64,000 bases of DNA from Massilia oculi (GTDB lineage: Bacteria > Pseudomonadota > Gammaproteobacteria > Burkholderiales > Burkholderiaceae_D), in assembly GCF_003143515.1 (NCBI RefSeq), contig NZ_CP029343.1:1674001-1738000 (forward strand), written 5' to 3'. Both the position numbers and the translations under genes were made by a program. This document shows, one piece after another, positions 52,176-62,524 of the stretch (its first letter is position 1; each line of letters opens with the position of its first letter). The notes beneath the pieces were generated by a model. That model saw only the letters and a program-made list of their open reading frames with translations. It was not told where the DNA came from and did not search any database.

Positions 52176-52275
52176 TGCTAAGTAGTAAAAACATGTCGTG
52201 TCCATATCACACGGCGATTCACTGACTTTACTGGCCGGCGCAACCCGCTGCCAGGTCTTACGGGGAAGACTGACT

Positions 52276-55188
52276 ATGATGGTTGAAACTGTGTTATCTC
52301 GATCGGTGCGGCTGATCTGCGCCGGCGGCCTTGCCGTCGCCTGCACCGCGGCCCACGCCCAGGAAACGGCGCCTGCCGCCGAATCGCTGCAACGGGTGGA
52401 AGTGACCGGCTCGCGCATCGCGACCGCGAACCTGGAAAGCGTCAGCCCGGTGACCGTGGTCAACGCCAAGGACATCAAGATGGAAGGTGTCCGTTCGGTC
52501 GAGAACCTGCTGAACAACCTGCCCCAGGTCTTCGCCGACCAGGGCGGTTCGGTCTCGAACGGCTCGTCCGGCACCGCGACCGTCAACCTGCGTAACTTCG
52601 GCGCCGACCGCACCCTGGTGCTGGTCAACGGCCGTCGCCTGCCGGCCGGCAGCCCGCGCAACACCGCGGCCGACCTGAACCAGATCCCGGTGGGCCTGAT
52701 CAAACGCGTCGAAGTGCTGACCGGTGGTGCCGGCGCCATCTACGGCTCGGACGCCGTGGCCGGCGTGGTCAACTTCATCATGGACGACCGCTTCCAGGGC
52801 GTCCAGATCGACGCCAACTACCAGTTCTACAACCACGACCAGAACGGCGGCCCGGTGGCCGACGCCGCCCGCCGCCGCAACTTCGCGCTGCCGGGCGACA
52901 AGGGCGCCGACGGCAAGGTCAAGGACATCAGCCTGACCATGGGCGGCAACTTCGCCGACGGCAAGGGCAACGCCGTGGTGTTCTTCGGCTACAAGAAGGA
53001 AGACGCGCTGCTGCAGTCCGAGCGCGACTTCACCGCCTGCTCGCTGGGCGGCGCCAGCCGTGGCGACGTGTTCAATTGCGGCGGCTCCGGCACCAGCTTC
53101 CCGGGCCAGTTCATCACCGCCACCGGCCTGAAAACCGTGGCCGACGCCAACGGCAATGTGCGCAACTACGTGGCCGCCCAGGATGCCTACAACTTCGGCC
53201 CGCTGAACTACTTCCGCCGTCCGTCGGAACGCTATACCTTCAGCTCGTTCACCCACTACGACATCAACGACAAGGCGCGCCTGTACGCCGAGGCCAGCTT
53301 CCACGACGACAGCACCGTGGCCCAGATCGCGCCGTCGGGCCTGTTCGGCCTGGACGCTTCCGGCGCCAACGCGATCCGTTGGGAAAACCCGCTGCTGTCC
53401 GACGCCTGGCGCAGCGCGCTGGGCATGACCGGTCCCGGCGACACCGCCGACGTCGTCATCCTGCGCCGTAACGTCGAAGGCGGCGGCCGCCGCGACGACC
53501 TGCGCCACACCTCCTACCGCGGCGTGGTCGGCGTCAAGGGCGACATCGGCAACTGGCAGTACGACGCCTTCGCCCAGGTCGGCAAGGTGCTGTACTCGGA
53601 AACCTATTTCAACGACTTCTCGGTCTCGCGCAGCGCGCGCGCACTGAACGTGGTCCCGGGCGCCAACGGCCAGCCGGTCTGCGCCAGCACCCTCAACGGC
53701 GTCGACCCGAACTGCGTCCCGTACAATATCTGGAAACTGGGCGGCGTCACTCCGGAAGCCCTGACCTACCTGCAGACCCCGGGCTTCCAGAAGGGCCATA
53801 CCTCGCAGACCGTGCAGGGCATCAACCTGTCGTCCGACCTGGGCGAGTACGGCATCAAGCTGCCGACCAGCAGCGAAGGCGTGGGCGTGGCGTTCGGCTG
53901 GGAACACCGTACCGAGAAGCTCGAACTGAACTCGGACGTGGCGTTCGAATCCGGCGACCTGGCCGGCCAGGGCGGTCCGACCAAGAACGTGAGCGGCCAG
54001 TTCAGCGTGCGCGACTACTTCGCCGAGACCCGCATCCCGATCCTGCAGAACGTGCCGTTCGCCGACCAGCTGACGCTGACCGGCAGCTACCGCAAATCGG
54101 ATTACTCGACCGGCCAGGACACCGACTCCTACGGTTTCGGCCTCGAGTGGGCGCCGGTGAAGGAAGCCAAGTTCCGCTTCAGCTACCAGCGCGCGGCCCG
54201 CGCCGCCAACGTGGTCGAGCTGTACACCCCGGCCGGCCTGGCCCTGTTCGGCATGGACGTCGATCCTTGCGCCGGCGCCACGCCATCCGCGACCCTGGCA
54301 CAGTGCGCACGCACCGGCGTGACCGCTGCCCAGTACGGCAACATCCTCAATTCTCCGGCCCAGCAGTACAACCAGATCATCGGTGGCAACACCAACCTGG
54401 AACCGGAAGAGTCGGATTCGTACACCCTGGGCCTGGTCCTGACCCCGACCCGCAACACCTCGCTGACCATCGACGCCTTCGACATGAAGGTCAAGGGCAC
54501 GATCGGCGGCCTGCCGGCCTCGACCACCCTGACCCAGTGCCTGGAGACCGGCGACCCGCAGTTCTGCAGCCTGATCACGCGTGACCGCCTGGGCAGCCTG
54601 TGGGCCCTGGAAAGCGCCAACATCGTCGCCACCAACCAGAACCTGGGCATGAGCTCGACCAAGGGCGTCGACCTGGGCGCCAACTGGAACACCAAGCTCG
54701 GCGCATGGGGCAGCCTGAACCTGTCGCTGATGGGCACCTACCTGAAGGAGTTCAAGCAGGAAGACTTCCCGGGTTCGGGCGAGTACGACTGCGCCGGCCT
54801 GCACGGCACCACCTGCGGCGTGCCGCTGCCGAAATGGCGTCACAAGGTGCGTGCGGTGTGGGGCACCCCATGGCGCGGCGTGGAGCTGGGCGCGACCTGG
54901 CGCTACGTCAAGGGCACCGACCTCGACTCGAGCAGCGACCAGCCTCTGCTGAGCGGCAGCTTCCAGGCAGCCGACGCACGCCTGGGCGACCGCAACTACC
55001 TGGACCTGACCGCCGGTTGGCAGATCAACCAGATGTTCTCGCTGCGCGGCGGCATGAACAACGCGCTGGACAAGGATCCTCCAGTGTCGGGCGTGGTGGC
55101 TGAAGTCTTCGGTAACGGCAACACCTACCCACAGGTGTACGATTCGATGGGCCGTCACGTGTTCCTGAACCTGACCGCCAAGTTCTGA
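52276..55188 (+). CDS. TonB-dependent outer-membrane receptor (receptor 1)
   Basis: This 970-residue protein is a TonB-dependent transporter. The ATG at 52276 has GGGGAAG upstream; a longer frame from 52198 is rejected. A signal peptide (about 1-31, AHAQE) is followed by the plug domain (about 50-175: VTVVNAKDIKMEGVRSVENLLNNLPQVF, LRNFGADRTLVLVNGRRLP, VEVLTGGAGAIYGSDAVAGVVNFIM; quoted in part), and a 22-strand barrel ending in VFLNLTAKF. Cys pairs (such as QCLETGDPQFC) in the extracellular parts are typical of receptors for larger organic substrates. The substrate is unknown; the divergent peptide importer is a possible partner. Confidence 0.93.
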   Translation: MMVETVLSRSVRLICAGGLAVACTAAHAQETAPAAESLQRVEVTGSRIATANLESVSPVTVVNAKDIKMEGVRSVENLLNNLPQVFADQGGSVSNGSSGTATVNLRNFGADRTLVLVNGRRLPAGSPRNTAADLNQIPVGLIKRVEVLTGGAGAIYGSDAVAGVVNFIMDDRFQGVQIDANYQFYNHDQNGGPVADAARRRNFALPGDKGADGKVKDISLTMGGNFADGKGNAVVFFGYKKEDALLQSERDFTACSLGGASRGDVFNCGGSGTSFPGQFITATGLKTVADANGNVRNYVAAQDAYNFGPLNYFRRPSERYTFSSFTHYDINDKARLYAEASFHDDSTVAQIAPSGLFGLDASGANAIRWENPLLSDAWRSALGMTGPGDTADVVILRRNVEGGGRRDDLRHTSYRGVVGVKGDIGNWQYDAFAQVGKVLYSETYFNDFSVSRSARALNVVPGANGQPVCASTLNGVDPNCVPYNIWKLGGVTPEALTYLQTPGFQKGHTSQTVQGINLSSDLGEYGIKLPTSSEGVGVAFGWEHRTEKLELNSDVAFESGDLAGQGGPTKNVSGQFSVRDYFAETRIPILQNVPFADQLTLTGSYRKSDYSTGQDTDSYGFGLEWAPVKEAKFRFSYQRAARAANVVELYTPAGLALFGMDVDPCAGATPSATLAQCARTGVTAAQYGNILNSPAQQYNQIIGGNTNLEPEESDSYTLGLVLTPTRNTSLTIDAFDMKVKGTIGGLPASTTLTQCLETGDPQFCSLITRDRLGSLWALESANIVATNQNLGMSSTKGVDLGANWNTKLGAWGSLNLSLMGTYLKEFKQEDFPGSGEYDCAGLHGTTCGVPLPKWRHKVRAVWGTPWRGVELGATWRYVKGTDLDSSSDQPLLSGSFQAADARLGDRNYLDLTAGWQINQMFSLRGGMNNALDKDPPVSGVVAEVFGNGNTYPQVYDSMGRHVFLNLTAKF

Positions 55189-55250: not shown

Positions 55251-56309
55251 TTAGTCTTGTCGCAGGCGGCGCTGGCGCACCGCCGCCGCCAGTCCTTCCA
55301 GCACGCCGACGCTGGTCTCCCAGTCGATGCAGCCATCGGTCACCGACTGGCCATAGGTCAGTTCCTTGCCCGGCACCAGGTCCTGCCGTCCGGCCACCAG
55401 GTGCGATTCGATCATCACGCCGACGATGCGGTCGTCGCCGCCCGCGATCTGGGCCGCGATGTCGGCGCACACCGGCACCTGGTTCTCGGGCTTCTTGGAA
55501 CTGTTGGCATGCGAGGCGTCGATCATCAGGCGGCTGGCCAGGCCCAGCGCGGCAATCTGCTTGCAGGCCTCCTCGACGCTGGCGGCATCATAGTTCGGCA
55601 TCTTGCCGCCGCGCAGGATGATGTGGCAATCCTCGTTGCCCGAGGTCGACACGATGGCCGAATGGCCGCCCTTGGTCACCGACAGGAAGTGGTGCGGCTG
55701 CGACGCCGCCTTGATCGCCTCGGTCGCGATCTTGATATTGCCGTCGGTGCCGTTCTTGAAACCGACGGGACAGGACAGGCCGGAAGCCAGCTCGCGGTGC
55801 ACCTGCGACTCGGTGGTACGGGCGCCGATCGCGCCCCAGCTGACCAGGTCGGCGATGTATTGCGGGCTGATCACGTCGAGGAATTCGGTGCCGGCCGGCA
55901 GGCCCATCTCGTTGATGTCGCGCAGCAGCTCGCGCGCCATGCGCAGGCCGTCGTTGATGCGGAAGCTGTTGTCCATGTAGGGGTCGTTGATCAGGCCCTT
56001 CCAGCCGACCGTGGTGCGCGGCTTCTCAAAATAGACCCGCATCACGATCTCGAGTTCGCCCTTGAAGCGCTCGCGCTCGACGACCAGTCTGCGCGCGTAC
56101 TCGAGCGCCGCCTTCGGGTCGTGGATCGAGCATGGTCCGATCACCACCATCAGGCGGTCGTCCTGGCCGTGCAGGATGCGGTGCAGGTCGACCCGCGCGC
56201 CGCTTGCTGTCTGCTCGGCCTGCGGGGTCACCGGGAACTCGCGGATCAGGTGCGAGGGCGGCGTCAGTTCCTTCATCTCACGGATGCGTAAATCGTCGGT
56301 GCGGGGCAT
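55251..56309 (-). CDS. aroG: 3-deoxy-D-arabino-heptulosonate 7-phosphate synthase (type I)
   Basis: This enzyme condenses phosphoenolpyruvate and erythrose-4-phosphate, the first step of the shikimate pathway. The 352-residue protein matches the AroG/AroF/AroH family: VVIGPCSIHDPKAALEYA, MRVYFEKPRTTVGWKGLINDP, a GxEFLDVISPQYIADLVSWGAIGARTTESQVHRELASGLS region, VGFKNGTDGN and IMIDASHANSSKKPENQ-like LMIDASHANSSKKPENQ. The leader encodes a Phe-rich peptide and an attenuator (56363-56494), so expression is expected to respond to charged tRNA-Phe. The isozyme type (Phe- or Tyr-feedback) cannot be set from motifs alone, though the leader favours phenylalanine control. Confidence 0.96.
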   Translation of the reverse strand: MPRTDDLRIREMKELTPPSHLIREFPVTPQAEQTASGARVDLHRILHGQDDRLMVVIGPCSIHDPKAALEYARRLVVERERFKGELEIVMRVYFEKPRTTVGWKGLINDPYMDNSFRINDGLRMARELLRDINEMGLPAGTEFLDVISPQYIADLVSWGAIGARTTESQVHRELASGLSCPVGFKNGTDGNIKIATEAIKAASQPHHFLSVTKGGHSAIVSTSGNEDCHIILRGGKMPNYDAASVEEACKQIAALGLASRLMIDASHANSSKKPENQVPVCADIAAQIAGGDDRIVGVMIESHLVAGRQDLVPGKELTYGQSVTDGCIDWETSVGVLEGLAAAVRQRRLRQD

Positions 56310-56362
56310 GCTGGGACTCCCTTTCGTGCTGTTCTGTGCTGGTCTTGTTCAGGACTGGAAAT

Positions 56363-56388
56363 AAAAAAACCGCCATCGCTGGCGGTTT
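56363..56388 (-). terminator. Attenuator terminator in the aroG leader
   Basis: AAACCGCCA and TGGCGGTTT form a perfect 9-bp stem with a 4-base loop, followed on the minus strand by seven T. It lies about 55 bases before the aroG start and 22 bases after the leader-peptide stop. Confidence 0.9.
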
Positions 56389-56514
56389 GTCTGGATGCTG
56401 CCGGGACGTTTTACTGCGCGTACCCGCCGCTATTCCACCGCCAGGGGCTGGAATGGCTAAAGTAAAAAAAGCGGGTAAAGAAAGCGTGGCGCATGGTGTC
56501 GTCCGGGTTTGGTC
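56367..56514 (-). promoter_or_regulatory. aroG transcription attenuator (leader RNA)
   Basis: Three mutually exclusive helices can be drawn on the minus-strand RNA. Segment 1 (CGCCA at the start of the leader ORF) pairs with segment 2 (TGGCG). Segment 2, CTGGCGGT (56437-56444), pairs perfectly over 8 bp with segment 3, ACCGCCAG, which is the 5' arm of the terminator. Segment 3 otherwise pairs with segment 4 to end transcription. Ribosome stalling at Phe codons should free segment 2 and allow read-through into aroG. Confidence 0.85.
56411..56494 (-). CDS. Phe-rich leader peptide of the aroG attenuator
   Basis: A 27-codon ORF (ATG 56494, TAA 56411) precedes the aroG terminator hairpin. Its product begins M-R-H-A-F-F-T-R-F-F-Y-F, so five of residues 5-12 are Phe and one is Tyr; two Trp and another Tyr follow. 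Such clustering is the hallmark of an attenuation control peptide, as in pheA leaders of enterics. The ORF is too short to be listed by usual gene finders. The codons CCC TGG CGG TGG include the antiterminator strand. Confidence 0.85.
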   Translation of the reverse strand: MRHAFFTRFFYFSHSSPWRWNSGGYAQ

Positions 56515-56520
56515 GAATTG

Positions 56521-56550
56521 ACTATAACAACAAGGCATGAAAGTTGGCAA
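56521..56550 (-). promoter_or_regulatory. Sigma-70 promoter of aroG
   Basis: TTGCCA (56545-56550) and TATAGT (56521-56526) are separated by 18 bases on the minus strand, each matching consensus at 5 of 6. The predicted start near 56514 lies about 20 bases before the leader ORF. Confidence 0.7.
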
Positions 56551-56816
56551 GCCTTTTGTCGCGCGTTACACGCTTGTACAGACAACAATCGGTTGCAGCA
56601 ATCTGACATCCCTGGGTGCGCGTGGGCGCCACCTTACGCGCATCTTGCGCTATCTCATTCCAGACATGGCTACCGATGCAACAGTCGATTCAAGCCCGGC
56701 TGCCGCGCGTGTTGATTGTAGACACGACCAAGTGCCAGGGGAATTGATCTGCGATAAGGATCAAGCCCTCCACCCGCGCGGCATCCGAATCTTCCCATCC
56801 ACTGGAGTGTCGGACC

Positions 56817-59684
56817 ATGACTGAAACCCTGCTTTCCCGTTCCGTGCGCCGCCTGTTCGCGGGCGGCGGCGCCGCCGGCCTGGCGCTCGCCGGCCCCGTG
56901 CTGCTGGCCCTTCCCCACCCTGCCGTCGCCCAGGAGGCCGCTCCCGTGGCCCGGGTCGAGATCACCGGCTCGAACATCCGCCGCGCCCAGGCCGAGACCG
57001 CGTCCAGCGTGCTCACCGTCAACCGCAACGACATCGAGCGCTCGGGCAAGACCACGGTGGCCGAGCTGCTGCAGACCCTGGCGGTCGACAACCAGGGCTC
57101 GGTGCCGATGAGCTTTGGCAGCGGCTTCGCGGCCGGCGCCTCCGGTATCTCGCTGCGCGGCCTGGGGACGGCCTCGACCCTGGTGCTGCTCAACGGCCGC
57201 CGCATGGCGCCCTACGGCCTGGCCGACGACGGCCAGAAGGTCTTCGCCGACCTCAACGTGATCCCGACCGACGCCGTCGAGCGCATCGAGATCCTCAAGG
57301 ATGGCGCCTCGGCCATCTATGGCTCGGACGCGATCGCCGGCGTGGTCAACATCATCCTGCGCCGCAACTTCCAGGGCACCAGCGCGCGCGCACTGTACGG
57401 CAGCGGCGAGGCCGGCGACGGCCAGCAGCACAACCTGGCCCTGGCCTGGGGCTTCGGCAACCTCGACACCGACCGCTACAACGTGCTGTTCAACGTCGAG
57501 TACAAGAACACGCAAGAGATCTGGTACCGCGACCGCGGCAACCGCGACTACATCGGCAAGATCGACCTGCGGCCCTATGGCTATTCGGCCCAGGAAGGCT
57601 TCGGCGGCACCGGCGCCATCACCGGCAACAACCAGTCGGGCAACGCCATCAACGGCAATGTGCGCAATCCCGACACGCTGGAATACTACAACCGCGGCAA
57701 CCTGGCCGGGCCCGGCTTCACGCGCACCTTCCCGGGCGCCGCCTGCGGCAATTTCACCAGCCATCCGCAAGGCGATCCGGGCGGCGGCTGCCTGGTCGAC
57801 TCGGCCTTCCTGTACAACCAGATCCAGCCCGACAGCGAATACCTGTCGCTGTACAGCCGCGGCACACTCAAGCTGCAGGGCAACACCGAGGCCTACGCCG
57901 AACTCAATCTGTACAACAGCCTGGCCCAGTCGAGCAGCACGCCGAACCCGATCGCGGCCAGCGTCGGCTATCCCGGCGGCCCGGTCAGCAACGCCGGCAT
58001 CCAGCTCGGCGCCGAGCACCCCGACAACCCCTATTTCGGCCGCGCCGCGCGGCTGCGCTACCTGCCCTTCGACGTCGGCCCGCGCCAATCCGACATCTCC
58101 TCGACCTTCATCCGCGCGCTGTTCGGCGCGCGCGGCACCAGCGGCGCCTGGGACTGGGATACCTCGCTGCTCTATTCGCGCAGCAAGGTCGACAACGAGC
58201 GCCGCGGCTACCTGCTGCGCGACGCCACCTTCGCCCTGCTCGATCCGACGCCGGAGAACGTGGCCGCGGCCCAAGCCAATCCCGGCTACCGCGCCCTGCC
58301 GGCCGGCACCTACTGGCGCATCGCCGAAAGCGCGGGCCTCAATTCTCCGGCCGTCTACGCCGCCCTGTCGCCGACCATCGCGAACGACGCCGAGACCGAG
58401 ATCGCCCAGGTCGACTTCAAGGCCACGCGCGAGATCGGCAAGCTGGCCGGCGGCGCCGTGGGCGTGGCGCTGGGCGCCGAGTTCCGCCACGAATCGGCGC
58501 GGCTGGATCCGACCGCCGGCACCGAGCGCGGCAACATCATCGGCCTGGGCTATTCGGCCTATGACGGTCAACGCAACGTGCTCGGCATTTATGGCGAAGT
58601 GCTGGCGCCGGTGCTGCCGGGGCTCGAACTTACCGGCGCCATGCGCTACGACCACTTCACCGACGTAGGGGATGCCTGGACCCCGAAGGTCGGCGTCAAG
58701 TGGAACCCGCGGCGCGAGCTGGCGCTGCGCGCCACCTGGGCCAAGGGCTTCCGCGCGCCCAGCCCGGCCGAAAACGGCGTTGGCGGCCTGGCGGCCTTCG
58801 CCAACGCCACCGATCCTGCCCGCTGCGCGCTGGGCGTGCAGACCGCCTGCAGCCCCGCATCGGTGTCGGTCATCACTTCGCCCAACCAGGACCTGAGCCC
58901 GGAGCGCTCGAAGAGCTGGAATATCGGCGCGATCTGGGACCCGCTGCCGCGCACCAGTTTCTCGCTCGACTTCTGGAACATCAAGCGCAAGAACGAGATC
59001 AACCAGCAACAGATCGACGCCGCGATCGCCGCCGGCGACGTGGCGCGCGACCCGAGCACGGCGGTGCCGACGATCCCGGGCGACCCCGGCGCGATCACGG
59101 CGGTGCTGGCGCGCTACGTGAACTCGGCCGAGACCGAGGTGCGCGGCATCGACCTGGACGCGCGCCAGGGCTTCGGGCTGCCCAACAACTGGGGCACACT
59201 GACCTTCGACGCCAAGTACACCTACCTGGACAAATGGGAGCGCACCGAGAGGGACGGCACCACGCGCGACTACGCTGGCACCCATGGTAACTGCGACGTC
59301 AGCAACTGCATGGGCACACCGGACCACAAGGCCAACCTGCGCGCGACCTGGGAGCGCGCCAACTGGCGCGTGTCAGCCAACCTCAACTACCGGGGGCCGA
59401 TCGACAACACCTTCTTCAAGGACGATCCGGAAGGCTGCGCCAGCCGGTTCGCCAACGGCGACGACGCGCCGAGCGACTGCGAACTGGCCTCGTTCACCAC
59501 GGTCGACCTGGTACTGCGCTGGAAGCCGCAGCCGCGCTGGGAAATCTACGGCTCGATCCAGAACGTGTTCGACAAGCAGGCGCCGCTCGATCCGCTGACC
59601 TATGGCGCGGTATCGTACAACCCGCTCGACTACTACGGCGCGATCGGCCGCTTCTTCACGCTGGGGGCGCGATACGCGTTCTGA
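56817..59684 (+). CDS. TonB-dependent outer-membrane receptor (receptor 2)
   Basis: This 955-residue receptor opens with a signal peptide (about 1-39, AVAQE) whose first residues TETLLSRSVRRLFAGG resemble those of receptor 1. The plug domain (about 50-180) shows VLTVNRNDIERSGKTTVAELLQTLAV, LRGLGTASTLVLLNGRRMAPYG and IEILKDGASAIYGSDAIAGVVNIIL (quoted in part). The barrel ends GRFFTLGARYAF with a C-terminal Phe, as expected for outer-membrane insertion. The substrate is unknown; no neighbouring enzyme or inner-membrane transporter indicates one. Confidence 0.94.
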   Translation: MTETLLSRSVRRLFAGGGAAGLALAGPVLLALPHPAVAQEAAPVARVEITGSNIRRAQAETASSVLTVNRNDIERSGKTTVAELLQTLAVDNQGSVPMSFGSGFAAGASGISLRGLGTASTLVLLNGRRMAPYGLADDGQKVFADLNVIPTDAVERIEILKDGASAIYGSDAIAGVVNIILRRNFQGTSARALYGSGEAGDGQQHNLALAWGFGNLDTDRYNVLFNVEYKNTQEIWYRDRGNRDYIGKIDLRPYGYSAQEGFGGTGAITGNNQSGNAINGNVRNPDTLEYYNRGNLAGPGFTRTFPGAACGNFTSHPQGDPGGGCLVDSAFLYNQIQPDSEYLSLYSRGTLKLQGNTEAYAELNLYNSLAQSSSTPNPIAASVGYPGGPVSNAGIQLGAEHPDNPYFGRAARLRYLPFDVGPRQSDISSTFIRALFGARGTSGAWDWDTSLLYSRSKVDNERRGYLLRDATFALLDPTPENVAAAQANPGYRALPAGTYWRIAESAGLNSPAVYAALSPTIANDAETEIAQVDFKATREIGKLAGGAVGVALGAEFRHESARLDPTAGTERGNIIGLGYSAYDGQRNVLGIYGEVLAPVLPGLELTGAMRYDHFTDVGDAWTPKVGVKWNPRRELALRATWAKGFRAPSPAENGVGGLAAFANATDPARCALGVQTACSPASVSVITSPNQDLSPERSKSWNIGAIWDPLPRTSFSLDFWNIKRKNEINQQQIDAAIAAGDVARDPSTAVPTIPGDPGAITAVLARYVNSAETEVRGIDLDARQGFGLPNNWGTLTFDAKYTYLDKWERTERDGTTRDYAGTHGNCDVSNCMGTPDHKANLRATWERANWRVSANLNYRGPIDNTFFKDDPEGCASRFANGDDAPSDCELASFTTVDLVLRWKPQPRWEIYGSIQNVFDKQAPLDPLTYGAVSYNPLDYYGAIGRFFTLGARYAF

Positions 59685-59818: not shown

Positions 59819-62524
59819 TCAACCGCCGAAGTGATAATTCAACTCGACCCACCCGGTCCGCCCCGCCGGGCTGTAGCTGCCCACCGCATAATTGGGCCAG
59901 CCGCCGGTCGTGTCGTGCTTGATGCGATCGAACACGTTGTTGACGATGGCCGACAGGGTCAGGCGGTCGTTCACGCGATACACGACGCTCGCATTGACCA
60001 GCGTGGTCGGCGTCAGGTAGTCGGTCTGGGCCGAGTTCGGGATCTTGCCGTAGCGGGTCGCGAACACGGTCGACGACCAGGCGCCGCCGTTCCAGTTCAG
60101 GCTGGCCGCCAGCTTGTCCGGCCAATCCGAGCTGGTGAGCGAATTGAGTTCGTCGCGCACCGTGTCGCCGGCAAACTGTTTCGAGCGGCGGGTCAAGGTC
60201 TTCGAGTAATTGCCGCGCAAGGTGAACGTGCCCCAGGCCGCGGTGCGCAGCGCATAGCGGGCGCTGACGTCGATGCCGCTGCTCGATTCCTGCGCCGCAT
60301 TGATCGGGTTGACGCGGATCTCGCGGATCTCGCCCGGACGCACCGGCGAATCGGTTGCGTAGCGCGTGATGCGCGAGATCGTGTCCACGCACAGCGAAGA
60401 ACCGATGTCCAGCGAGCCCAGGCGGCAGGCCGCTTCGTCGCGCAGCAGTTGGTCGGCCGACAGATTGGTCACCAGGTCGTCGATCTTGATGTCCCAGTAG
60501 TCGATGGAGGCATCGAAGCTCGTGCTCGGCGACCAGACGATGCCGGCGCCATACGACTTGCCCTGCTCCGGCTTGAGGTCGGCGCTGCCGTACTGCACGT
60601 AGTCGGCGCCGGGCGAGTAGCTGGCGAATTCGCAGTTCGCCAGCGGCTGGCCGGTCACGCCGCAGCGGTAGTGGTCGGTGGTCGACGAGTAATAGCCGGT
60701 GCCGCGCGCCTTGTAGATGTAATTCATGTCCGGCGCGCGGAAGCTGGTGGCGTAGTTGGCGCGCACCAGCAATGCGCGCGTCGGCCGCAATTCCAGGCCG
60801 CCGGCGTAGGTGAACTTGCCGCTGTCGCGCTCGGCGAATTCATAACGGTCGTAACGGCCGGCCAGGGTCGCGGTAAGGATTTTGTGCAAGGGGATGCTGA
60901 CCTCGGTGCCGAGCGCATAGCGGTTGCGGGTGCCGGCCGTGACCGCGGTGTTCGGCGCCAGGTTGAAGTAGCCCGCGTTGATGCGCTCGTCGGGCGCATT
61001 GGTAAAGCCCTGGCGGCCGGCCTCGGCCACCACCGCCAGTTGCAGCGGGCCGGCCGGCAGCTGCAGCAATTCGCCATTGGCGCTGGCCGATACCGTATGG
61101 GTCCAGGATTCGTCGTCGCTTTCGGCATAGCCGGTGATGGTCCCGAATTCGTCCGGGTTCACGCGGGTCGCCAGCCGCGCCTGGTCCGGCGCATAGATGG
61201 CGACGCCGCTCGCGTCCGTTCCCAATCGCGGCCCGAGGAAGAAGCTGTCGATGTTCGACAGTGCGCGCGGGGTCTTGCCCTTGCTCTCATACCAGGATGC
61301 GCTGTAGCCGGCTTCCCACTTCCAGCTGGTCCCGGGCACGATGCCGCGTGCGCCCAGCGAGGCGGCAACGGCGCCGTCTTCCCAGAAGCGGTTGTAGCGC
61401 GACAGGCCGCCCATCTCTTCCGGGGACATATAACGGGTCCAGGCTTCGTAATGGCCCGTGTTCCGGTTCAGGAAGTAGCCGTTGTTCAGCGAATTCGAGG
61501 TCCACGATGGGCCGCGCGTATTGTTGACGGTGTCGTTGTGGCCTAGCAGGACGTCGGCGAACAGCGTCGTGCTGTCGTCGAGTTCATAGGTGGCGCTGCC
61601 GAACGCATTCTTGCTCTGGTTCCGGGTCTGCACCGACCAGTAGGTCGGGCTGACCTTGTTGCTGGCGCAATAGTTGCCGGTACGCGATGCGTAGTTGACG
61701 ACGCTGCCGCCGAACAGGTCGCCTAATTGCCCGCAGGTCGCGCCCGGATCGATGTAGCGGCCCACGGTGGCGTCGCGGCGCGACAGCATATTGGTAGGCA
61801 GGCCCGAGCGTTCGGACATGAAGTCGCGCTGGTAGGCGCCGATCGGATTGCGTTCCGAGAACTCGAGTGCGAACACGGTGCTCAGGCGATCGAACTGCCT
61901 GCCGCCGGTGAACTGCACGCGCCGCTCGGCGCCGCCGCCGCGGCTGGTGCCGCCCAGCTTGACGTTGACGTCGAAGCCTTCGGCCTTCTTCTTGAGGATG
62001 ATGTTCACCACGCCGGCGATCGCGTCGGAGCCGTAGATGGCCGAGGCGCCGCCCGACAGGATCTCGATGCGCTCGACGATGGACGAAGGGATATTGGCAA
62101 GGTTGGTGAAGTTGACCGTGCCCTCGTAGGCGATCGGGAAATCGGCCAGTCGCCGGCCGTTGAGGAGCACCAGCGTGTGATTCGGCCCCAGGCCGCGCAG
62201 GCTGATGGTGTTGGCGGACGGCGTGAAGGTATTGCCGAAGTCGGCGCCCTGCACGAAGCCGCTGTTCTGCACCTGGTTGTTCAGGGCGTCGAACACGTTC
62301 TTGTAACCCTGGCGCGTGATGTCGTCGCCGGTGATGACGGTGACGGCCGACGGACCATCCAGCTGCGCCCGGGCGATGCGCGAGCCGGTGACGAGAACCG
62401 ACGCGGGCGCGGCACTGGTGCTGGCAGCGGCGACTGGCGTGTCGGCGGAGGTCGACGCCGCCTGGGCGTGGGCGAGCAGCGGCGCGCCAATGGCGGCGGC
62501 CAGTAGATAAGTTTGTTTCATCAT
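59819..62524 (-). CDS. TonB-dependent outer-membrane receptor (receptor 3)
   Basis: This 901-residue receptor (ATG at 62524, or 62521) has a signal peptide (about 1-22, AHAQA), a Ser/Ala-rich linker and a plug domain (about 45-165) with VTVITGDDITRQGYKNVFDALNNQV, LRGLGPNHTLVLLNGRRLADFP and IEILSGGASAIYGSDAIAGVVNIIL (quoted in part). The barrel carries Cys pairs such as EAACRLGSLDIGSSLC and ends near VELNYHFGG. It is convergent with receptor 2 and belongs to the same broad receptor group. The substrate is unknown. Confidence 0.93.
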   Translation of the reverse strand: MMKQTYLLAAAIGAPLLAHAQAASTSADTPVAAASTSAAPASVLVTGSRIARAQLDGPSAVTVITGDDITRQGYKNVFDALNNQVQNSGFVQGADFGNTFTPSANTISLRGLGPNHTLVLLNGRRLADFPIAYEGTVNFTNLANIPSSIVERIEILSGGASAIYGSDAIAGVVNIILKKKAEGFDVNVKLGGTSRGGGAERRVQFTGGRQFDRLSTVFALEFSERNPIGAYQRDFMSERSGLPTNMLSRRDATVGRYIDPGATCGQLGDLFGGSVVNYASRTGNYCASNKVSPTYWSVQTRNQSKNAFGSATYELDDSTTLFADVLLGHNDTVNNTRGPSWTSNSLNNGYFLNRNTGHYEAWTRYMSPEEMGGLSRYNRFWEDGAVAASLGARGIVPGTSWKWEAGYSASWYESKGKTPRALSNIDSFFLGPRLGTDASGVAIYAPDQARLATRVNPDEFGTITGYAESDDESWTHTVSASANGELLQLPAGPLQLAVVAEAGRQGFTNAPDERINAGYFNLAPNTAVTAGTRNRYALGTEVSIPLHKILTATLAGRYDRYEFAERDSGKFTYAGGLELRPTRALLVRANYATSFRAPDMNYIYKARGTGYYSSTTDHYRCGVTGQPLANCEFASYSPGADYVQYGSADLKPEQGKSYGAGIVWSPSTSFDASIDYWDIKIDDLVTNLSADQLLRDEAACRLGSLDIGSSLCVDTISRITRYATDSPVRPGEIREIRVNPINAAQESSSGIDVSARYALRTAAWGTFTLRGNYSKTLTRRSKQFAGDTVRDELNSLTSSDWPDKLAASLNWNGGAWSSTVFATRYGKIPNSAQTDYLTPTTLVNASVVYRVNDRLTLSAIVNNVFDRIKHDTTGGWPNYAVGSYSPAGRTGWVELNYHFGG

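Follow-up and report, generated by a model that had tools for sequence, protein, structure and literature searches.

In Corynebacterium glutamicum, the DAHP synthase gene aroF is preceded by the leader aroR (Phe-Tyr-Phe), which is reported to respond to phenylalanine limitation (PMC11802643, PMC4046766; Neshat et al. 2014). By target, aroR-aroF is the closest known case to the element described here. In both, a Phe/Tyr leader peptide stands before a DAHP synthase gene, the likeness being one of anatomy only. Corynebacterium, however, is an actinobacterium, and the aroG leaders described here carry 4–8 aromatic residues in 8 codons and the conserved arms CTGGCGG, CCGCCAG and CTGGCGG. Attenuation has also been reported for pheA and pheST (PMC11802643). 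The enterobacterial pheL-pheA leader (Phe_leader; RF01859) and the pheST leader share a Phe-rich peptide and an alternative terminator and antiterminator with the aroG leaders, but their target is pheA or pheST and not aroG, and Phe_leader scored 18.7 bits on the present leader (E 0.91, relaxed thresholds), below its gathering score of 55. The trpL attenuators (Trp_leader; RF00513), including the leaderless trpL of Alphaproteobacteria, follow the same logic, and many aroG leaders outside Massilia also look leaderless. In the aroG leaders, however, Phe and Tyr codons dominate and not Trp, and Trp_leader scored 13 bits (E 6.9) against a gathering score of 41. No Rfam 15 family reached its gathering score anywhere in the window, the whole 64-kb stretch of the Massilia oculi genome analysed here.

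The DAHP synthase genes of Gammaproteobacteria, E. coli included, are reported to respond to aromatic amino acids through control by TyrR and TrpR (PMC11802643, PMC5343134). These regulators differ from the present element in being DNA-binding proteins, and none of the seven enterobacterial aroG loci in our scan of named loci (best 80 of at least 592) carried an attenuator leader. In the openly available parts of the literature matches listed, no attenuator of a proteobacterial aroG is described. The main text of PMC2965389 nowhere mentions aroG or DAHP, and the attenuators predicted before tyrA operons that are listed in the available part of PMC1173090 do not include one for aroG.

The aroG gene of the window lies on the minus strand at 55251..56309 and encodes a 3-deoxy-7-phosphoheptulonate (DAHP) synthase of 352 aa, matching the NCBIfam AroG equivalog NF006723 with 589.4 bits (cut-off 568). 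On this strand, a promoter-like site, a 27-codon ORF, an intrinsic terminator and aroG follow one another in that order. The element before aroG is very probably a ribosome-mediated transcription attenuator controlling this gene. The initial annotation had proposed the same, and the helices, covariation and aromatic codons found in relatives support it. The predicted sigma-70-type promoter, TTGCCA-18-TATAGT (56521..56550, minus strand; TTGCCA at 56550-56545, TATAGT at 56526-56521), is present as that annotation described it and is the sole promoter-like site within 56300-56700 (shuffle mean 0.2). TTGCCA stands upstream of 36/36 Massilia leaders, and TATAGT is the best -10 in 35/36. The leader peptide ORF (MRHAFFTRFFYFSHSSPWRWNSGGYAQ; 56411..56494, minus strand) begins with the ATG at 56494, and its stop codon ends at 56411. 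It is a short ORF rich in codons for products of the pathway, with the control codons F9 F10 Y11 F12 at 56459..56470 (minus strand), and the gene that it precedes, aroG, encodes a biosynthetic enzyme of that pathway.

Downstream of and overlapping this ORF are the four segments of the attenuator, all on the minus strand. Segment 1 (56449..56476), defined by its pairing with the segment 2 side in 36 Massilia leaders, consists of ACCCGC (56476-56471) and ATTCCA (56454-56449). Segment 2 (56422..56444), defined from the 36 Massilia leaders and 73 diverse leaders, comprises CTGGCGGT (56444-56437), TGGAAT (56437-56432) and GCGGGT (56427-56422). Segment 3, ACCGCCAG (56379..56386), pairs either with segment 2, as the antiterminator, or with segment 4, as the terminator, and these two helices are mutually exclusive in sharing it. 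The intrinsic terminator, with its T run, occupies 56363..56388 and has a 9-pair stem, AAACCGCCA-GCGA-TGGCGGTTT. Of 200 shuffles, 199 fold less well than the 166-nt leader RNA (z -3.05). The neighbour on the other side of the leader is a large ORF on the plus strand (56817-59684); it is divergent, and the terminator therefore serves no upstream gene. Three large ORFs flanking aroG (52198-55188, 56817-59684 and 59819-62524) look like TonB-dependent receptors by eye.

The initial annotation had suggested aligning the aroG upstream regions of relatives. After removal of four exact duplicates our leader set held 110 sequences, of which 73 entered a diverse alignment; those dropped were mostly Massilia and near-identical leaders. 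The leaders are related, so counts among them are not independent. Aromatic codons are kept before 36/36 Massilia orthologs, and both alternative helices covary over the 73 leaders. The 9-bp terminator stem with its T run, as first described, has 99.3% of cells paired over 36 Massilia leaders, 6 of which carry a double change from AU to GC, and 98.0% paired over the 73 diverse leaders, in which 5 pairs show double changes (1/500 shuffles as many). The antiterminator arms CTGGCGGT (56444-56437) and ACCGCCAG (56386-56379) are complementary, as the 8-bp antiterminator of the initial annotation implied; its six core pairs are kept, invariant, in 36/36 Massilia, but the two outer pairs counted there are unpaired in 16 and 21 of the 36. 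Over the 73 leaders this helix has 2 pairs with double changes, a number matched by 351/500 shuffles, and 19 double-changed cells, a number matched by none (0/500). Within Massilia alone its covariation is not beyond shuffles (89/500).

The core antiterminator pairs are nearly invariant, and the covariation therefore rests on few pairs. One position varies jointly in segments 2, 3 and 4 of the 73 leaders: the antiterminator pair is UA in 31, CG in 15, UG in 3, AU in 2, GC in 1 and unpaired in 21, and the matching terminator pair is AU in 43, GC in 18, CG in 2, UA in 2, GU in 1 and unpaired in 7. Base changes are inherited in groups, so the events are fewer than these counts. By contiguous pairing alone, 60/110 antiterminators are matched by at most 5/100 shuffles of their own leader; for the window the figure is 0/100.

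For the 1:2 helix, the alignment points to ACCYGC:GCRGGU plus AUUCCA:UGGAAU, supported mainly through one covarying pair. Over 36 Massilia leaders 94.9% of its cells are paired, and a UA to CG double change occurs in 8 sequences at one pair, although one pair of the ACCYGC part is broken in 12/36. A single pair with double changes is no more than shuffles give (471/500 as many); the number of double-changed cells is above all shuffles (0/500). Both parts of segment 1 adjoin the control codons, as the attenuation mechanism requires. A different 1:2 pairing, CGCCA with TGGCG, had been proposed before. Its letters are present in the window, but the helix was not borne out in relatives and was rejected: over 36 Massilia leaders its cells are paired in 77.8%, none of its pairs shows a double change, and 436/500 shuffles do as well.

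The sequence shows the parts of the element with their geometry, conservation and covariation; from it we infer where transcription would start and end, and how stalling would tie it to amino acids through tRNA charging. RNA polymerase would start near 56513-56515, and a ribosome would then begin the leader peptide. With charged Phe (and probably Tyr) tRNA scarce, the ribosome would stall at codons 9-12, where its footprint would mask segment 1 (ACCCGC, AUUCCA) and leave segment 2 (CUGGCGGU) free. Free segment 2 would pair with segment 3 (ACCGCCAG), the terminator would be blocked and aroG would be transcribed. With the tRNAs charged, the ribosome would run on, and in most Massilia the stop codon would place it over segment 2. 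In the window's lineage, with its later stop, segment 2 would instead re-pair with upstream RNA behind the ribosome. With either stop, segment 3 would pair with segment 4, and transcription would end at about 56363. The late stop results from a one-base gap that shifts the stop codon from just past segment 2 to 19 nt further in 5/36 Massilia (G000, G004, G011, G020 and G026), the window included; G030 has a separate late stop codon of its own. Stops as late as the window's are also frequent in non-Massilia leaders, and the gap is read for that reason as a tolerated variant and not as damage.

These steps were put into a simple model of ribosome footprints in 106 leaders; the four leaders without a GGCG core were left out. 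The model assumes a footprint that extends 13 nt, counted from the first base of the codon in the A site. The median P(2:3) was 0.125 in naked RNA; stalling the ribosome at the most favourable of the aromatic codons 18-30 nt upstream of the core gave a median of 1.0. For the window, the model gave 0.37 in naked RNA and 1.0 with a stall at codons 5-12. Naked RNA already favours 2:3 in some leaders (P 0.96 in G004, 1.0 in L173 and 1.0 in L228). With the ribosome at the stop codon, the modelled core was not clear of it in 69/106 leaders; in the remaining 37, the window included, the core lay behind the ribosome, and in 36 of these it was paired in that position with P>=0.5 (0.62 for the window). 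Going by the pairing in Massilia and the footprint model, a ribosome stalled at the control codons would disrupt the 1:2 helix.

An aroG ortholog was found in 36 of the 37 Massilia genomes searched, G021 having only a paralog (51%). The leader ORF and terminator precede 36/36 of these orthologs, aromatic codons are kept in all 36, and the 27-codon ORF with its aromatic run noted in the initial annotation thus has equivalents throughout. None of the 6 upstream regions examined of Massilia aroG paralogs (about 51% identical) has a leader. The genome of the window itself carries a second DAHP synthase, 51% identical, at G000:C1:3845540-3846559; no leader or terminator-like hairpin was detected within 450 nt upstream of it (L145). 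A covariance model built from the Massilia leaders gave one full match in the window's own genome, the leader itself (139.7 bits). Three weak matches of this model (E 0.4 to 5.3) were rejected, one being the opposite strand of the attenuator hairpin. The other two, L253 and L254, lack both a leader ORF and aroG, and L253 resembles coding sequence. Two partial own-genome matches of a broader model, described below, cover the terminator part alone and were likewise discarded.

Of 150 genomes sampled evenly across the order, 97 have an AroG at E<=1e-118, and 95 of these lie outside Massilia. A leader precedes aroG in 27/95 of these with the stricter detector and in 32/95 when larger terminator loops are allowed; in 63/95 there was no leader within 420-450 nt upstream. 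The leader was on none of 13 second aroG-like copies examined in this sample, the tandem copy of G057 being left out. In the seven genomes that have a leader and of which both aroG copies were read, it stands before a single copy. G057 has a tandem pair of aroG-like genes (G057:C1:2636360-2638526), with an attenuator on the first. The combination of ORF and terminator occurred in 63/150 upstream regions of aroG and paralogs; the stricter detector found it in 0/750 dinucleotide shuffles and 0/150 reverse complements, and the looser one (loops up to 16) in 0/80 reverse complements.

In the scan of named loci, which covers the best 80 of at least 592 and favours relatives of the first query row, 46/80 have a leader (L217, with 58 nt upstream, was not judgeable). 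By record title, the leader-bearing loci among these best 80 include Burkholderia, Caballeronia, Paraburkholderia, Cupriavidus, Janthinobacterium, Rugamonas, Undibacterium, Oxalobacter, Herminiimonas, Variovorax, Polaromonas and a MAG titled Bordetella, and, beyond Burkholderiales, Dyella, Xanthomonas, Stenotrophomonas, Pseudoxanthomonas, Bradyrhizobium, Devosia and Mesorhizobium. No leader was found at loci of the same 80 titled Rhodocyclus, Thauera, Azoarcus, Dechloromonas, Accumulibacter, Methylotenera and Polynucleobacter. Upstream sequence was covered to 450 nt for one set of loci and to 420 nt for an older one, and leaders more distant from aroG are missed; the terminator of L190 lies 472 nt upstream of aroG. 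In G056 (L047), G103 (L096) and G147 (L101), a CCGCC...GGCGG hairpin with a T run lies 236-379 nt before aroG and no leader was detected in the sequence fetched; these hairpins are perhaps the same element at greater distance.

The broad covariance model, built from the 73 leaders, was run on 398 genomes of the phylum and gave 47 full-length matches at >=44 bits. The best 30 of the 47 all have aroG downstream and a leader ORF (30/30), at least 5 of these 30 being sequences used in building the model. At E<=0.001 the model matched in 98/398 genomes; our conclusions use only the best 30 full-length matches. The distribution of the aroG attenuator is broad and coherent.

The register of the control codons relative to segment 2 is conserved beyond Massilia. 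Our detector requires an aromatic cluster (4 aromatic residues in 8) and sets no condition on codon register relative to segment 2. Of the 110 leaders, 106 have an aromatic codon starting 18-20 nt ahead of the GGCG core of segment 2, and 109 have one starting 21-23 nt ahead of it; for the 4/110 leaders without a GGCG core, distances were counted from the start of the found helix. In the window these codons are F12 and Y11, which start 19 and 22 nt before the core. The nearer codon is Phe in 81, Tyr in 15 and Trp in 10 of the 110 leaders; at the farther position there are 45 Tyr, 44 Phe and 20 Trp codons. In Massilia leaders TTT accounts for 133/164 Phe codons, whereas 30 Massilia aroG genes favour TTC (185/208); slow decoding or unstructured RNA may be the reason.

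These codons suggest that aroG is probably raised when charged Phe tRNA is short, and perhaps when Tyr or Trp tRNA is. The Phe-type sensor of the initial annotation holds in that aromatic codons are kept in all 36 Massilia leaders, but it is not Phe-only, with Tyr before segment 2 in 33/36 and Trp in 19/36. A refinement of the main reading, to which we give close to an even chance, is that the attenuator responds to Phe, Tyr and Trp together and not chiefly to Phe: a codon for any of the three in the critical register would permit stalling, and shortage of any one amino acid would open the common pathway. The mixed residues at both register positions point this way, as does the presence of F, Y and W in 7/7 alphaproteobacterial and 5/5 xanthomonad leaders, in which Tyr is commonest and outnumbers Phe (19 Y vs 10 F and 16 Y vs 11 F, respectively). 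Phe, however, is present in 110/110 leaders and is the commonest aromatic overall, and 17/36 Massilia leaders, the window among them, have no Trp codon before segment 2. The C. glutamicum F-Y-F leader is, moreover, reportedly indifferent to Tyr supply (PMC11802643, citing Neshat 2014).

It is unlikely that the short ORF chiefly encodes a peptide acting in trans, with attenuation secondary, as for peTrpL in Sinorhizobium, where a trans role of an attenuator peptide has been reported (PMC7298713). The peptides are aromatic-rich and similar within Massilia, as such a role would suggest, but the sequence of their C-terminal half tracks the RNA. Relative to the leader ORF, segment 2 lies in three different frames (86, 13 and 11 of 110 leaders), and the one-base gap alters the end of the peptide. 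Still more doubtful, at a very low probability, is nascent-chain arrest by a free aromatic ligand in place of tRNA charging. The aromatic run is conserved, but the critical codons can encode any of Phe, Tyr and Trp and the residues beside them vary between families, and the run therefore does not resemble a specific arrest motif. Single intrinsic terminators are common, but a chance hairpin or a neighbouring gene's terminator is hardly credible here, given the divergent neighbour, the conservation and the failure of every shuffle and reverse complement to yield the combination.

In many leaders outside Massilia, among them L205, L206, L236, L237, L239, L244, G047, G057, G075 and G079, the ATG is preceded at 6-9 nt by a -10-like hexamer (21/61 of the beta leaders scanned). 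At this distance from the ATG, the leader peptide may be translated from leaderless mRNA. Leaderless translation has been reported for Sinorhizobium trpL (PMC10117765). As a tentative proposal, with somewhat less than an even chance, one ancestral family of aroG-linked aromatic attenuator RNAs could span Burkholderiales, Xanthomonadales and part of Alphaproteobacteria. Two neighbouring codons, 18-23 nt upstream of segment 2, would jointly report the charging of Phe, Tyr and Trp tRNAs. Each lineage would adjust the proportions, Massilia leaders being rich in Phe and those of Bradyrhizobium and xanthomonads rich in Tyr with Trp, and several lineages would translate the leader from leaderless transcripts.

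The attenuation mechanism of the aroG leader is itself classical and follows the logic of pheL and trpL; the novelty lies in aroG as its target in these Proteobacteria, unmatched by Rfam. The leaders make up an RNA family with no Rfam 15 match at gathering scores. The natural swaps of Phe, Tyr and Trp at two fixed codons are ready variants for studying the weight that an attenuator gives to each of several amino acids. The shikimate pathway begins with DAHP synthase, and for the aroG genes of Massilia and many of its relatives the element offers a specific mode of control that can be tested.
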